Assembly: GCA_017429285.1 (NCBI GenBank)
Contig: JAFRPF010000016.1
Coordinates: forward strand, 62,001-126,000
Length of the DNA: 64,000 bases
Direction of reading: 5' to 3'
Source: Bacilli bacterium
GTDB taxonomy: Bacteria > Bacillota_I > Bacilli_A > RFN20 > CAG-826
Shown piece after piece: positions 13,035 through 61,220 of the stretch. Positions within the stretch are counted from its first letter, which is position 1. Each line of letters starts with the position of its first letter. The translations under genes and the position numbers were made by a program. Below the pieces are notes generated by a model. The model saw only the letters and a program-made list of their open reading frames with translations, made no database searches and was not told the DNA's origin.

Positions 13035-13190
13035 CACTAAAGCAATTGGCAACAATTTCAATTAAATCCTAAAGACAATTTTAGATAAGTTAATCATATT
13101 TGGTTATGCTTCATTTTGAAATAATGCTCTTTTCAATTAGAAAAAAATAAAGTAAACAAACAACCTGATAGTGGTTTTTTCAAATATTTT

Positions 13191-13209
13191 TTATTTACAA
13201 AGTAAATAA
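13191..13209. repeat. Perfect palindrome next to the CIRCE element
   Basis: TTATTTAC-AAA-GTAAATAA has perfect 8-base arms and lies two bases before the CIRCE left arm. It could be a second operator at the same promoter. Confidence 0.5.
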
Positions 13210-13211
13210 AG

Positions 13212-13238
13212 TTAGCACTCTAAGGGGTTGAGTGCTTG
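13212..13238 (+). promoter_or_regulatory. CIRCE operator (HrcA site)
   Basis: TTAGCACTC, a 9-base spacer and GAGTGCTTG match CIRCE (TTAGCACTC-N9-GAGTGCTAA) at 16 of 18 arm positions. HrcA binding to CIRCE represses heat-shock genes in Firmicutes and Mollicutes. A perfect copy precedes clpB at 22503-22529; in both places TACAATAG follows downstream. No chaperone gene is nearby here: the next features are a folded RNA and a surface-protein gene. Confidence 0.8.
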
Positions 13239-13239
13239 A

Positions 13240-13260
13240 TTCTTCTTCTTCTTCTTCTTC
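13240..13260 (+). repeat. (TTC)7 simple repeat in a promoter spacer
   Basis: Seven uninterrupted TTC units lie between CIRCE and a TACAAT -10 (13262-13267). Slippage in such tracts can change promoter spacing; a GAA tract controls vlhA genes in Mycoplasma gallisepticum. Confidence 0.85.
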
Positions 13261-13261
13261 T

Positions 13262-13267
13262 TACAAT
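13262..13267 (+). promoter_or_regulatory. -10 element TACAAT
   Basis: TACAATAG is identical to the sequence downstream of the clpB CIRCE (22538-22545). A -35-like TTGAGT (13228-13233) overlaps the CIRCE right arm, but the spacing is 28 bases because of the TTC tract. Predicted start of transcription is near 13274. Confidence 0.5.
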
Positions 13268-13273
13268 AGTCGC

Positions 13274-13485
13274 ATAGAGCGACTCCCCATTAGGGGGAGA
13301 ACCTGAGGTCAGAGGTTCTCCACCGAAGTCGAAATTGCTCTATTTGACTGGATTAGAAAAAAGAATCACGGTGCACATGACTCTTAATGTTCTCTTCTAG
13401 TCACGTCAGTGGCGTTAGCAGTCGCGCAAGAGGCGCATAAGAACTCGCTAACAAGCTGACAAAAATCACTAGATTGATGTTTTTT
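13274..13485 (+). ncRNA. Unassigned structured RNA or long 5' leader
   Basis: Two compact folds can be drawn. Fold 1 has stem ATAGAGC (13274-13280)/GCTCTAT (13337-13343) enclosing GACT/AGTC. Inside is a three-way junction with hairpins CCCC-ATTA-GGGG (13285-13296) and GAGAACCT/AGGTTCTC (13297-13320). Fold 2 is a nested arm: TCTAGT/ACTAGA (13396-13401/13468-13473), GTCAG/CTGAC, GTTAGC/GCTAAC and GCGC/GCGC. GTTCT (13389-13393) could also pair with AGAAC in the internal loop as a pseudoknot. A T run follows at 13480-13485. It matches no SRP, tmRNA, RNase P, 6S or riboswitch signature I know. It could be a small RNA or the leader of the 991-aa gene. No ORF is seen in it. Confidence 0.5.
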
Positions 13486-13593
13486 GGCGTATGGATGAAA
13501 TAGGTAATCCAAACAAAAAGAAATAATCAATCAAAGATTTATTCATACTCTAAGGTTAAAGGACCTAGAGATTTACGAAAGGAGAGAACAAAT

Positions 13594-16569
13594 ATGAATA
13601 AATTATTTACAAAGATCGTCGGTGTTGTTTTAGGTGCAACCATGGCGGTCGGAGTAGGCGTTGCTGTTGCTAGTAATAGTAAGGTTAGTGAAGTTAACGC
13701 TGCTGCTGGTGATAAAGTTACTAAAACTTTAACGTTTACGTCTAATTTTTATGGCATTAGCACAACACAAGGAAATCAGACTTTGACTGGTGATGGTGCT
13801 ACTTACGGATTTGAATTTGTCAAAGGTAGTGGCACAGGTGCAAAAGCTTCTGGCAGTTCACCAAGCTCAACCTCATATGTTTTATTTGGAAAAAGCGGTG
13901 TTTATTTTAGAAATACATCTGCTCCAGCAAATTCGTATATTTCAGCTATAAGCTGGACTTATTCTAGTGGTGTTTCAACAAACGTCGTCCTTGGTATTGG
14001 ATATGGTGCTAGCGCATTAGATGCTAGTGCTTCTGTTACAAATCAACCGAAAGCGACACAAAGTGGTACTGTTAGTTTGACTCCAACCGATACCAGCAAA
14101 AGTTATTTTATAATTAAGGTTACTAACGCTTATAACTGCCAATGGAAAAGTTTTTCTGTGACCTGGACCGAAAAAGCCTCGTCAAAAACTCTTTCTAGCA
14201 TTTCTTTGGGCGGATCTTATCCAAAATCATTTTATACTGGCGATACTTTTAGCCATACTGGAATGACTGTTACTGCCAATTATAGCGATTCTACTAGTGC
14301 TGATGTCACAAGTAGTGCAACTTGGTCGTCACCTGACATGTCTACTACAGGAGAAAAAACCGTTACGGTATCATATACGGAAGGTACTACAAAAACAGCT
14401 GATTATGTCATCACAGTTACTGCTGCACCTACAGCTGTATCAGCTGAAGTCATAAATGACATGAGTAAAAAAGCATATTATGTAGGTGATCCATATGATG
14501 TTGATGGTTTAACTCTTAGAGTTACATATGATAACTCTGATACTAGAGATTTTGATTTCAAAACAGAATTAACAAAAGATACAGACTATATACTTGACCA
14601 TGATAATGCTGTATTAGGTGATGTTGAACTTTATTTGTCAGGAGAATATCTTGGATGCGAATTTGATTTCACTGTTGAAGGTATTACAGTCAGTGCCGCT
14701 CCACAAAAGTACACGATTACTGGGCCTTCTACGACTCAAGCTTCTGGCACAGGATTGACTGTTGAAACTCTTAATGAATACTATCCAATCGATAGTAGCG
14801 CATATATTGAATGGACTGCTGTTTCTGGAAGTGCTTATGGTTCATCAACCTCTGCAATGAGATTTGGTACCAGCACTGCTTCAGCTTCTGGTTATGTTAC
14901 CTTGAGTCTTAAAGAAAATGCGCCTATTTACTTTACTAAAGTAGTTGTTAATGCAAAGACATGGAGTAGCGAAACTGGCAATACTCTAAAAGTTAATAAT
15001 TCAACTAAAGTAGTTACGACTAGCTATGAAGATTATGAGTTTTCAATTGAAAGCGATGCAACAAGTATTAATTTCGGTAATGGAACCAAACGTGTTAACA
15101 TCTACGCAATTGATGTTTATTATGGTGAAAAAACACCTGTATTGCATGTTAGTTCTGCTTCTGTCGAAGCTGCGATTAACACAAATTCAACTCATGTAAC
15201 ATTTACATACGATAATTACACACCAACGAGTTATGATGCTGTTGTAAAATCAGGAAGTTCATTAAGTAAATCTGCCATCGCTTTTGACACTAGCGTAACT
15301 CCGCATAAAGCTACTATTACTACTGGAAATACTACAGGCACTACAGTGTTTACCATTACTGGAACTGGAGGCGACAAATCTGCTTCTGTTGATGTTGCAG
15401 TTAATGTTACTAATCCTCGTAACATTATAAATTTGGAAATCACTACAGCAGGAACTTTAACATTCAAAGTTGGCCAAGCATTTGATGTTGGAAACCTTGT
15501 TGTTACTGCTACATTTGACGCTGATCCAACAACTGTTGTTTATTCAAAAGCGAATGAAAATTTGGGCGAATTAACATTCAGTCCTGAAATTGGATACGAA
15601 TTCGTTGAAGCTGACATTGGTTCTCAAACTATCAACATCAGCAAAGCGGTTGGAACTGGTGACGAGAGCACAAGTTATATCGTTACTGTTTCTGATAAGG
15701 ATTATGCTGCTGCAGTTACTTCGATTGATAATTTATGGGATGGCCAAAAAGTCTATTTCTCAAACGGCACTGATAGTGCGTTCCCAATGTATACTTCAGG
15801 AAACAATGTTTCCTCAGTTAGCGCAACTATTCACAGTTCAAAAGGCATAGATATTGTTTCTACAACCGCATATCAGTATACAGTTGGCAGAGAAAAAGTC
15901 GATGATACTGTTTATTACACTTTTGCATTAGTTGATAATAACACAATTTATTATTTAAAGGATGCTGGTACAACTAGTACAAATGCAATTGCTAAAACAA
16001 CGGACAAAACTGATAATACAATTTACTGGACAATTTCAGCGGGAGCAAAAGACGGTCAATGGCACATTGTTAATAAGAGCAATACAGACAAACCAACACT
16101 TCAAGTAAATGGAACTTATTTATCTTGTTATAACAATAACCAAACAGACCCGTATTTATATGCTGTTACGTCATATAGCAAAGAAGCTGTTGCAGAATCG
16201 TTCAAACAAAATGCCCTACACTTTGCGGATTATGATCCTTCTCAATCAACAAAAGGAAAGGATACTGGTGCTGGCTGGTGTAAAGACAGCGAACATAACT
16301 ATTATCAACACGCCAAGAACGTTTGGAATGCTATGACAAATGATGAAAGAGGCGCTGTTGATCAAGATGCGCTTGATAGATTATCTGCATGGGCATCAGC
16401 TAACGGCGATGTCTTGAATGGAACAAATGTACTTTCAACAAGAACATCAATTAGTTCTCTTTTACGTGAAGGTTCTGCTGTTTCTATAGTTATCATTGTT
16501 TCATCAGCTGTTACCTTAACCGCTATAGGTGGTTACTTCTTCATTAGAAGACGTAAAAAACAATATTAA
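13594..16569 (+). CDS. Large Ig-like surface protein with C-terminal membrane anchor
   Basis: A 991-aa exported protein. Residues 1-37 form a signal peptide with a likely VNAAA cleavage region. A beta-rich N-terminal part (about 40-195) is followed by a Big_3-type Ig-like domain (about 203-280: KSFYTGDTFSHTGMTVTANYSD and the TGEKTVTVSY strand), a second related domain (280-365), a carbohydrate-module-like beta region (about 370-515), and further Ig-like segments. Near the end a helical stretch (about 865-955) precedes a single membrane helix (VSIVIIVSSAVTLTAIGG) and the basic tail RRRKKQY. No LPXTG motif is seen, so anchoring is by the helix. AAAGGAGAG before ATG is the ribosome site. Upstream lie the CIRCE, TTC tract and folded RNA. 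Likely adhesin or glycan-binding. Confidence 0.7.
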   Translation: MNKLFTKIVGVVLGATMAVGVGVAVASNSKVSEVNAAAGDKVTKTLTFTSNFYGISTTQGNQTLTGDGATYGFEFVKGSGTGAKASGSSPSSTSYVLFGKSGVYFRNTSAPANSYISAISWTYSSGVSTNVVLGIGYGASALDASASVTNQPKATQSGTVSLTPTDTSKSYFIIKVTNAYNCQWKSFSVTWTEKASSKTLSSISLGGSYPKSFYTGDTFSHTGMTVTANYSDSTSADVTSSATWSSPDMSTTGEKTVTVSYTEGTTKTADYVITVTAAPTAVSAEVINDMSKKAYYVGDPYDVDGLTLRVTYDNSDTRDFDFKTELTKDTDYILDHDNAVLGDVELYLSGEYLGCEFDFTVEGITVSAAPQKYTITGPSTTQASGTGLTVETLNEYYPIDSSAYIEWTAVSGSAYGSSTSAMRFGTSTASASGYVTLSLKENAPIYFTKVVVNAKTWSSETGNTLKVNNSTKVVTTSYEDYEFSIESDATSINFGNGTKRVNIYAIDVYYGEKTPVLHVSSASVEAAINTNSTHVTFTYDNYTPTSYDAVVKSGSSLSKSAIAFDTSVTPHKATITTGNTTGTTVFTITGTGGDKSASVDVAVNVTNPRNIINLEITTAGTLTFKVGQAFDVGNLVVTATFDADPTTVVYSKANENLGELTFSPEIGYEFVEADIGSQTINISKAVGTGDESTSYIVTVSDKDYAAAVTSIDNLWDGQKVYFSNGTDSAFPMYTSGNNVSSVSATIHSSKGIDIVSTTAYQYTVGREKVDDTVYYTFALVDNNTIYYLKDAGTTSTNAIAKTTDKTDNTIYWTISAGAKDGQWHIVNKSNTDKPTLQVNGTYLSCYNNNQTDPYLYAVTSYSKEAVAESFKQNALHFADYDPSQSTKGKDTGAGWCKDSEHNYYQHAKNVWNAMTNDERGAVDQDALDRLSAWASANGDVLNGTNVLSTRTSISSLLREGSAVSIVIIVSSAVTLTAIGGYFFIRRRKKQY

Positions 16570-16588
16570 TAATCTTTATTAGATAAAG

Positions 16589-16884
16589 GGGATTAGGAAC
16601 TTTTAGTTATGACCGACTAGGAAGTTCCTTCTTCCTTTATAGGTTTTAAAAATAGAACTTATAAAGGAGGAATAACAATCCTCTATATCATGATGTTCAT
16701 GCATCTAATTTATATTAGGGACATTATGATATGGGCAAATAGTGTGGTTCCTTTCGCTCCTAATAGGAGAGATAAGAGTTTAGTTCATAAACCACCACAA
16801 GATTTGTGACTTATTAATTTAATAAGTATAAGCCTGAATTATGAACACAGGTGACCGCTAACCAATATATTATTATTGGTTGAT
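16589..16884 (+). ncRNA. Chain of stable hairpins (possible structured RNA)
   Basis: At least seven stems stand in a row: AGGAACTT/AAGTTCCT with an inner TAGT/ACTA; CCTTTATA/TATAAAGG extended by GGTT/AACT; ATATCAT/ATGATAT with inner ATGT/ACAT and CTAAT/ATTAG; GTGGTT/AACCAC enclosing CTCC-TAATA-GGAG and GTTTA/TAAAC; ACTTATTA/TAATAAGT; CCTG/CAGG; and AACCAATA/TATTGGTT. The chain ends in the terminator at 16885-16940. No convincing ORF is present: a 39-codon frame from 16690 lies 19 bases from a GGAGG that sits inside a stem. It may be a 3' UTR element or a separate RNA. Confidence 0.45.
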
Positions 16885-16940
16885 AAAAAGCCCCAGCTCT
16901 ATGACCTAATTGACCGTTAGTGAGAGTGAGGCTTTTTATT
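16885..16940 (+). terminator. Strong terminator of the surface-protein unit
   Basis: AAAAAGCC (16885-16892) pairs perfectly with GGCTTTTT (16930-16937), with inner CTCT/AGAG and CTAA/TTAG stems. It separates the hairpin chain from the next gene. Confidence 0.8.
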
Positions 16941-16996
16941 ATCCTTATTATATATATTTATATAAAAAATATTTATATTAATTTATTAGATAAGTA

Positions 16997-17002
16997 TATA
17001 CT
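16997..17002 (+). promoter_or_regulatory. -10 element TATACT close to ATG (leaderless candidate)
   Basis: TATACT ends 9 bases before the ATG at 17012, with no Shine-Dalgarno between. No convincing -35 is seen. Confidence 0.45.
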
Positions 17003-17011
17003 TTAGATATT

Positions 17012-18865
17012 ATGAAAAAGATTATAAGAAATGTTTTAGCAGGATCACTACTAGTAGTGTCATTATTATTTACCGGTATTGGTATATCAAATAGTCAAAA
17101 GATGTATGAAACTAGGGCGGCTACATCAACCACATTAGAAACTGGTTTCTTTGAAAAGATTACTGATGTTAGTTCTATTAGTAGCGATGATCAAATAATT
17201 ATTGTCTCCACAAGCGGAGATGTCTTTGACTATATGGCGGGTAATCCATGTTTTGCGACCGCGTCTAATAGTAACTCCCTTTTATTAGGAGAAGAAAACG
17301 AATATCTATACTTAAATAGTAAAAAAGTCCAATATTTAAAAGTTGGTCCTGGTATATCAGAAAATACTTTTGCTTTCTATAATAAAATCGCCGTTGTCGG
17401 TAGCTATGGCGAAGCGAATGATGGCATATCTTATTTAGGACCTAATACCGAAGAAGATTATGGACAAGAAAATAATTATAAAAACGTCGCTTGGTTTATG
17501 AATGGTTTTGGTGTCAGACCTCATTATGATAAAAGAGCGTCTTGGACATTAGAATATGATAGTAATCATAAAGTCATGAAAATGGCTAATTTAGATGCCA
17601 TAGAACCATATATGTATTTACATTTTTCCCGTGGTGGAACTAGACCTAATTTCAACTTCTGTGAAGATGGGGCCATAAATGTAAATTTATTCCGTAAGAA
17701 AACTATCCAATCTGGCACTATACATATCACTAAACAACCAGATAAAACTACTGGTTATAAACCAGGTGATAAAATCGATATGTCTGGTTTAGAAGTTGAA
17801 TATAAATTCAACGAAGTAGAGAAGATACCTATTAGTTATGATGATTATTCTTATTTATTCTCTTCTCCCGGAAATGCTTATAGCGGTGACATTTCTTCTG
17901 CTACATATACGGTTAACTTTACATGTTTAGGGATGCCTGCAAATTTTGATATTACTGTTAATGGTGGTGCCTCTTTACATACCTATACAAAATTAACCAC
18001 CTTACCAGTGGATTATCGTGGTTCTTATATCATAAGAAATAATTCGTCTTTCTTCATGGCGAATAATGCCGAGGCATTTAAAAATGGTTTTGCTTTTGGG
18101 GAAGAAGAACCTGGGGAACAAATTGAAATCAATGATTATCGATTAGATAACTTTGTTATCACCATCGAAAAGAACATCATTAACGATACTATCTATTACC
18201 ACGCTAAAAACAATGAAGGAAAATATTTTGATTTAGGTGAAGAGGGAAGCGGTCAATCTGGTATTAGTTTAGTGGAGACACCTACAGCTAATAACGCTAT
18301 AACAATTACATCTAATGGTTTATTAATGATTGGCAATAAATATTTAAATGGTAGTGGTTCTAACTGGACATTAGATGATACTACTTATGCTATGGTTATT
18401 TATAAAAGAACATATATCTATGATGAAAGTGATGATTCTAACGAAGTGACACTCTTCGCTAAATATTTTGTTAACGAAGTATTAGGACATTGTGACACTA
18501 ATGGTAATGAAGATCTAATTGATAGCTATTTCACCACTAGTAAAGAGATGTTTGAAGATCTTAGCTTAGATGCAAAAGTGATATTCACTAACTGTACATA
18601 TGAATTAGAAAATACCACTTATGTGAAAAGAGCGGTCCAAGGATATGATTACATCATCTATAAATATCATCGTAGTAAGATTGATTATTTAGATCGTATC
18701 GAAAATGGATTTGTCACTCCTAAAAAAGATAGTTCTAATTTAATGAAAGTGATATTTAATGATAATGGACCATTAATTAGCATTATTATCGTTTCTTCAG
18801 TTATTATCGTTTCTTCTGTTGGCGCTTACATTTTCTTTAATAAAAAGAAACGTTTAGCAAAATAA
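17012..18865 (+). CDS. Second Ig-like surface protein with C-terminal membrane anchor
   Basis: A 617-aa exported protein. The signal peptide (1-36) has a likely ETRAA cleavage site. A beta-rich region up to about 235 is followed by an Ig-like segment (about 243-325) with the Big_3 pattern: GYKPGDKIDMSGLEVEYKF, then a YTVNFTCLG strand. A further beta-rich region spans about 330-475. The C-terminal part has a helical stretch (about 485-570) and one membrane helix (LISIIIVSSVIIVSSVGAY) with the basic tail KKKRLAK. Helical stretch and tail are laid out as in the 991-aa neighbour, and both anchors contain an SI(V/I)I-VSS motif, suggesting a shared anchoring module. Function unknown; likely cell surface. 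Confidence 0.65.
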   Translation: MKKIIRNVLAGSLLVVSLLFTGIGISNSQKMYETRAATSTTLETGFFEKITDVSSISSDDQIIIVSTSGDVFDYMAGNPCFATASNSNSLLLGEENEYLYLNSKKVQYLKVGPGISENTFAFYNKIAVVGSYGEANDGISYLGPNTEEDYGQENNYKNVAWFMNGFGVRPHYDKRASWTLEYDSNHKVMKMANLDAIEPYMYLHFSRGGTRPNFNFCEDGAINVNLFRKKTIQSGTIHITKQPDKTTGYKPGDKIDMSGLEVEYKFNEVEKIPISYDDYSYLFSSPGNAYSGDISSATYTVNFTCLGMPANFDITVNGGASLHTYTKLTTLPVDYRGSYIIRNNSSFFMANNAEAFKNGFAFGEEEPGEQIEINDYRLDNFVITIEKNIINDTIYYHAKNNEGKYFDLGEEGSGQSGISLVETPTANNAITITSNGLLMIGNKYLNGSGSNWTLDDTTYAMVIYKRTYIYDESDDSNEVTLFAKYFVNEVLGHCDTNGNEDLIDSYFTTSKEMFEDLSLDAKVIFTNCTYELENTTYVKRAVQGYDYIIYKYHRSKIDYLDRIENGFVTPKKDSSNLMKVIFNDNGPLISIIIVSSVIIVSSVGAYIFFNKKKRLAK

Positions 18866-22359: not shown

Positions 22360-22502
22360 AATTTATCATCTCCGGTAATATCTTATCACTTTTTATATTT
22401 GCCGCTATTAAAATGCATTAAAATTAGGCTCATTTTATGAACAAAAACACCGATAAATGAGGAAAATAATGAAAAATAATAACAAAGTTATTAGAAAATA
22501 TT

Positions 22503-22529
22503 TTAGCACTCGGGCTTGTAGAGTGCTAA
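22503..22529 (+). promoter_or_regulatory. CIRCE operator (perfect) before clpB
   Basis: TTAGCACTC-N9-GAGTGCTAA with both arms perfect. An extended -10 (TGCTACAAT, 22535-22543) lies just downstream, and a -35-like TTGTAG sits in the CIRCE spacer, so HrcA should block RNA polymerase directly. Confidence 0.95.
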
Positions 22530-29368: not shown

Positions 29369-29385
29369 TTATTACAAAGTAATAA

Positions 29386-38037: not shown

Positions 38038-38071
38038 TGACATTTAAATAATATTAGTTATAATATTTTTA

Positions 38072-38262
38072 GCCGTTGAGGAAGAGGAGTAATTATCTTT
38101 CTTAAAATAGAGAGTCGAGGATGGTGGAAGCTCGATATAAGGAAATAATGAAGGTCGCTTCGGAGGATAGTTGCCTAGCGATAATAGGTTAATGAAGTGC
38201 GTTAGAAATAACGAATTAAGGTGGTACCGCGCTGATAGCGTCCTTAAAATAGGGACGCTTTT
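38072..38262 (+). promoter_or_regulatory. T-box leader controlling valS (specifier GTC)
   Basis: A T-box riboswitch that senses uncharged tRNA-Val. Seen: the early GAGGAAGAGGAGTA element, AGAGAG stem I region, a specifier GTC (Val, 38154-38156) followed by the TCGGAGG segment, and the T-box core AAGGTGGTACCGCG (38218-38231). The intrinsic terminator is AGCGTCC (38237-38243) with GGACGCT (38253-38259) and T residues. Uncharged tRNA would favour the antiterminator. Confidence 0.93.
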
Positions 38263-41877: not shown

Positions 41878-41962
41878 TGTCGCCTCACTAGCTACAACCG
41901 CATAGAGAAGGTTTGCAAAACCTATTAAGGTTACCTTAATAGCGAGTCCTTAGTGAATCTAA
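41878..41962 (+). promoter_or_regulatory. L21 (rplU) leader RNA
   Basis: A ribosomal-protein leader matching the Firmicutes L21 leader. It has an outer TCACTA/TAGTGA stem, an AGGTTT-GCA-AAACCT hairpin, a second perfect hairpin ATTAAGG-TTA-CCTTAAT, and the GCGAGTCC segment. In this family the RNA is thought to bind L21 for autoregulation. Identification rests on remembered consensus. Confidence 0.75.
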
Positions 41963-61153: not shown

Positions 61154-61220
61154 TTTATAAACAAAGTTTATAATAAAAACTGATAAAATACTAAAAAACT
61201 ACTAATTAAGGAGATTAGAA

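Follow-up and report, generated by a model that had tools for sequence, protein, structure and literature searches.

Phase variation, which is random, and heat-shock repression, which is responsive, are normally separate controls. The HrcA-CIRCE system is known as the heat-shock control of groESL, dnaK and clpB, and sigma-70 promoters are known to prefer a spacing of about 17 bp. Phase variation involving a simple repeat between the -35 and -10 elements was described for hifA/hifB of Haemophilus influenzae (TA repeat) and porA of Neisseria meningitidis (G tract) (PMC3899988). The vlhA genes of Mycoplasma gallisepticum have a GAA tract roughly 40 nt before the start site and lack a conserved sigma-70 promoter; their expression is associated with a tract of about 12 GAA units (PMC6258824).

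The locus described here lies in a 64,000-nucleotide stretch of DNA from a Bacilli bacterium, the whole of which is referred to as the window. The CIRCE, the (TTC)7 tract and the TACAAT hexamer proposed in an earlier note on this DNA were all confirmed (Table 1), with TACAAT contained in the sequence TTACAATAG directly following the tract. The CIRCE was detected with two mismatches to TTAGCACTC-N9-GAGTGCTAA, for which the chance expectation was 0. Its core arms, GCACTC-N9-GAGTGC, are intact and only the outer two bases of the right arm depart from the canonical ending (…GCTAA). The clpB promoter from the same window served as the comparison and, as had been noted earlier, the distance from CIRCE to the -10 region is 8 bases there, where it is followed by TACAATAG, and 23 bases here. 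The (TTC)7 tract was the sole tract of five or more TTC or GAA units on both strands of the 1.26-Mb genome and therefore does not represent background. With the -35 element placed as in Table 1, the -35/-10 spacing in the window is 20 bp and the loss of one TTC unit would bring it to 17 bp.

Table 1. Positions of the promoter, leader and gene features in the window.
Feature	Position	Strand	Remarks
Perfect palindrome TTTATTTAC-AAA-GTAAATAAA	13190..13210		abuts CIRCE
CIRCE (HrcA operator), variant right arm GAGTGCTTG	13212..13238	+	2 mismatches to TTAGCACTC-N9-GAGTGCTAA
Putative -35 element TTGATT	13236..13241	+	TTG = final three bases of CIRCE
(TTC)7 spacer	13240..13260	+	slippage-prone
-10 element TACAAT	13262..13267	+	matrix scan
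5' leader RNA, about 320 nt	13274..13593	+	putative start site near 13274
Leader hairpin 1	13274..13343	+	predicted fold; outer stem 13274-13280 with 13337-13343
Leader hairpin 2, AGAAUCA-CGGUGCACA-UGACUCU	13362..13384	+	9-nt loop, self-complementary GUGCAC
Ribosome binding site AAAGGAG	13578..13584	+	invariant in alignment of related leaders
991-aa exported surface-type protein	13594..16569	+	signal peptide MNKLFTKIVGVVLGATMAVGVG, Big_3 Ig-like domain
clpB canonical CIRCE (comparison)	22503..22529	+	symmetric arms, no repeat

As in hifA/hifB and porA, a simple repeat was found between the -35 and -10 elements, where it is predicted to alter their spacing and hence the transcription of a surface gene, and these systems are a closer precedent than vlhA. 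Unlike in them, the repeats here are TTC, GAA, TC, AC or C, there are many loci per genome, a heat-shock repressor site is present and the hosts are uncultured gut Bacilli. To our knowledge, no repressor operator carries the -35 element in hifA/hifB or porA. The likeness to vlhA drawn earlier holds for a variable trinucleotide tract before surface lipoprotein genes but not for the position of the tract or the promoter type: instead of about 12 GAA units before a promoter lacking conserved sigma-70 boxes, the tract is a spacer of 3 to 8 units (seven TTC in the window) between recognisable -35 and -10 elements. As in HrcA-CIRCE systems, an inverted repeat TTAGCACTC-N9-GAGTGCTNN is located at the promoter, and the contig that holds the window also carries an hrcA gene (PF01628, E = 7.1e-49). 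The differences from the classic system are the surface-protein and lipoprotein targets, a right arm ending with TTG and not TAA, and the repeat spacer following CIRCE. In the open-access literature, no report was found joining a repeat spacer, phase variation or surface proteins to HrcA-CIRCE.

A DNA search with the window region revealed the same arrangement in other genomes and a protein search yielded 32 loci from uncultured Bacilli (recorded as Erysipelotrichaceae, Bacillales or Bacilli), in whose aligned CIRCE contexts the order of CIRCE, TTC or GAA tract and -10 element was found repeatedly. When 224 genomes from the window's own GTDB family were searched for the pattern, 28 proved to carry the TTC form and 7 the GAA form, compared with no matches of a reversed control pattern in the same 224 genomes. 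The TTC form was absent from all 55 genomes of other families of the same order. A phage-borne origin was considered and rejected, the pattern being present in no viral contig searched. In about 716 kb of related loci, each of the 43 distinct TTC or GAA tracts of at least five units adjoined a CIRCE half-site, a count biased by the fetching of many of these loci with this very pattern. The 46 triplet sites fell into 25 groups by the sequence downstream of the -10 element, and so they do not constitute one copied family; the triplet-site promoters themselves may nevertheless share ancestry. Some genomes have at least four sites, which differ in state. The palindrome abutting CIRCE, which may be the operator of some regulator or a DNA hairpin, also has counterparts: a palindrome with arms of at least 7 was present at this place in 36 of 46 related sites vs 5% of shuffles, its sequence differing from site to site. 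In the window, palindromes that differ in sequence, many of them with ACAAAGT at the centre, were noticed before promoters at 13190-13210, 22477-22493, 29369-29385 and 61155-61173.

The comparison of related sites points to the position of the -35 element. The right CIRCE arm of nearly all repeat-linked sites is GAGTGCTTG or AAGTGCTTG as opposed to the usual GAGTGCTAA, and TTG closes it in 45 of the 46 triplet sites (TTGCTT in 34, TTGCAA in 7, TTGATT in 2 and TTGTCT in 2), whereas the right arm of CIRCE sites without a triplet tract ends with TAA or CAA in 65 out of 68 cases. Judged by this conservation, the -35 element is the TTG closing the right CIRCE arm plus the next bases and not the loop sequence TTGAGT. 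With the -10 elements found by matrix scan, the spacing at the 46 triplet sites was 17 bp in 18, 14 bp in 12, 20 bp in 9, 23 bp in 4 and 11 bp in 3 cases. All 46 values are congruent to 2 modulo 3, compared with about one third per residue class for shuffled flanks, and every one of these sites can reach a spacing of about 17 bp through the gain or loss of whole units. Where three extra non-repeat bases precede the -10 element, fewer units are present (mean 5.0 vs 6.1, p = 0.009) and the mean spacing is 17.0 bp vs 17.4 bp at the remaining sites; the extra bases are thus offset by a tract about one unit shorter, which keeps the mean spacing near 17 bp. Part of the modulo-3 rule may be a legacy of an ancestral site in which only whole units changed.

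The 224 genomes of the same family were also searched for CIRCE with the TTG arm irrespective of the sequence that followed, and most of the scored sites came from this pattern. All 69 distinct scorable TTG-arm sites carried a simple repeat spacer (37 TTC, 23 TC, 7 GAA, 1 AC and 1 C9), compared with 9 of 77 other CIRCE sites, where the repeats were mostly A or T runs and close to the level in shuffled sequence. One more TTG-arm site, located at a contig end and lying outside the 69, had a TC tract with a spacing of 17 bp. The repeat unit thus varies among sites and the slot between the -35 and -10 elements is constant; because different repeats fill the same slot, spacer slippage appears to be what matters. 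At the TC sites the spacing was odd in 20 of 23 cases, most commonly 15 or 17 bp, so that 17 bp is reachable by two-base steps. In total, related bacteria have about 70 sites of this design. It was also observed that 68 of the 69 repeat spacers are purine/pyrimidine tracts, a choice not explained by slippage alone.

The number of units was not invariant, the TTC tract ranging from 3 to 8 units in relatives, with repeat counts derived from metagenome assemblies. The closest comparison was provided by two related loci, L067 and L078, which are 99.86% identical over 6889 bp and differ by seven substitutions and one 3-bp indel. This sole indel is one TTC unit of the promoter tract (7 vs 6), and a copy number differing between near-identical DNA, as expected of phase-variable promoters, was thus found in these relatives. 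The genomes holding these near-identical 6.9-kb stretches were placed in different genera, which may reflect misbinning of one contig or a recent transfer of the surface-protein locus; the DNA-to-DNA comparison stands regardless. Further close pairs showed whole-unit differences (TTC 3/5 with 96.6% flank identity, TTC 5/6/7 and GAA 4/5/6), and a TC tract differed by three units in one close comparison. For the window's own species, a second repeat count was not seen. The earlier view of the repeat as a promoter spacer joined to CIRCE therefore stands with respect to whole-unit variation among relatives, but not with respect to the position of the -35 element.

The gene downstream of the promoter encodes an exported surface-type protein, in agreement with the surface-protein locus proposed earlier, and the protein ends with a membrane anchor and an RRRKKQY tail. 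Most triplet sites precede proteins starting with MNKLFTKI..GVGVA, with a long leader, and the remaining ones are located before secreted, lipoprotein-like or membrane proteins of other kinds. The TC sites are mostly located before lipoproteins (lipobox motifs such as LSGC and LAGC) and exported proteins. Among the family loci (L209-L257), CIRCE with TC, AC or C9 spacers was observed before genes of lipoproteins or other exported proteins. In the window, a long, structured-looking intergenic stretch holding TTCATGCATC (16570-17000) lies between the surface-protein genes 13594-16569 and 17012-18865.

The leader RNA is predicted to be strongly structured (-74.2 kcal/mol for 13263-13480, z = -4.76 vs shuffled sequence), and an alignment revealed conserved blocks shared by related leaders. 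The same leader is also present on paralogues without CIRCE. Hairpin 1 contains an inner hairpin (13297-13320) with a loop related to UGGUCA, and a (U)GGUC(A) loop is conserved in the aligned leaders. Of 51 leaders in this protein family, 47 have an equivalent of hairpin 2, whereas simulated leaders gave 4.4 on average. Covariation was seen in the stem of hairpin 2, but since the hairpins had been selected for pairing, the simulation provides the fairer test. The loop cores are self-complementary in spite of their different sequences (GUGCAC in 20, AUGCAU in 15, AUCGAU in 3, UGGCCA in 3, UGCGCA in 2 and UAGCUA in 1), which suggests hairpin 2 as a candidate for a kissing-loop dimer. The nine-nucleotide kissing loop of HIV-1 dimer initiation comprises two bases, a self-complementary core of six bases and a single purine. 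Hairpin 2 has the same loop plan, and the analogy concerns hairpin 2 only; it differs in being part of a bacterial mRNA leader with putative dimerisation, and no homology is implied. A literature search on kissing-loop leaders returned no matches. RNAalifold detected hardly any shared fold across the full-length leaders, the aligner having failed to match the variable parts, and hairpin 2 was then assessed by itself. At the Rfam gathering score, neither the window nor nine related loci yielded a leader family. Permissive Rfam matches for the leader (SNORA31, DUF2800, rpsL sRNA, MIR868 and tmRNA) were far below the cut-off and were rejected, as was the reading of the leader as lysine-riboswitch-like or as a terminator, which found no support. 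Ordinary Rfam matches elsewhere in the window were a T-box leader and an L21 leader (38067-38248 and 41886-41960, respectively).

The architecture, its conservation, the spacing rule, the copy-number differences and the presence of hrcA are all read from the DNA itself, and on this basis it is quite probable that the element is a sigma-70-type promoter with its -35 element inside the HrcA operator and a slippery repeat as spacer, phase-switched and HrcA-gated. Whole repeat units would be gained or lost, moving the spacing in steps through 14, 17 and 20 bp, and the promoter would be strong only near 17 bp; the spacing rule together with the copy-number differences argues that slippage sets the spacing. 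For the window copy, with (TTC)7 and 20 bp, a weak or silent state is predicted, and with (TTC)6 the promoter would be on. As the geometry suggests, HrcA bound to the operator would cover the -35 element and so shut the promoter down whatever the number of repeats, and heat or protein-folding stress would release it. Since spacing and operator would both control the promoter, expression would need a permissive repeat count as well as HrcA release. Promoter activity, repression by HrcA and phase switching are in this scheme what we infer from the arrangement of the elements.

Other explanations were weighed against this one. The earlier note had taken TTGAGT (13228-13233) as the -35 element, with a loss of four TTC units giving 16 bp. 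TTGAGT does exist there and its distance of 28 bases to the -10 element was given correctly; however, it sits in the variable, unconserved CIRCE loop and is shared by just 5 of the 46 related sites, and the loss of one unit suffices with the conserved -35 element at the end of the CIRCE arm, which makes this reading hardly credible. More deserving of attention, though unlikely, is the tuning of spacing without switching, in which promoter strength evolves between species and the count is stable within a population. Most of the differences were indeed seen between species and the counts centre on the optimum spacing, but L067 and L078 are one unit apart with only seven substitutions in 6.9 kb, and the assortment of slippage-prone repeats in one slot would not be needed for tuning.

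The nature of the tracts themselves was considered as well. They could form a triplex (H-DNA) or melt under superhelical or heat stress, so that structure and not spacing would control transcription, and 68 of the 69 tracts (TTC, GAA, TC or C) are purine/pyrimidine mirror repeats; the shortness of the tracts (many of 9-21 bp), the AC site and the exact -35/-10 spacing rule, which such a switch does not predict, render it very improbable. It is scarcely believable that the tract is the binding site of an activator and the spacing rule incidental, as the interchange of TTC, GAA, TC, AC and C could hardly be tolerated by one binding protein and a -35 element is present at 45 of 46 triplet sites. 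For M. gallisepticum vlhA, the GAA repeats preceding the genes have been proposed to be such a site and need flanking sequence (PMC6258824).

The phase-switched, HrcA-gated promoter thus remains the preferred reading, and repeat slippage probably switches the surface-protein gene of the window at random, with stress acting as the gate. A broader proposal, more tentative and rather less likely than not to hold in full, is an HrcA-gated contingency regulon of multiple loci with slippery spacers (TTC, GAA, TC, AC and C), to which kissing-loop pairing of leaders between surface-protein mRNAs would be added. If such a regulon existed, the population would maintain surface proteins and lipoproteins in random on/off combinations that are revealed only under stress. 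A CIRCE ending with TTG plus a repeat provides a sequence rule for finding such switches. In this family of uncultured gut and rumen Bacilli, random and responsive control apparently merge within a single 60-bp element, an arrangement seen repeatedly and with various repeat units; if this is true, the stress state would decide when a pre-diversified population displays its surface variants.
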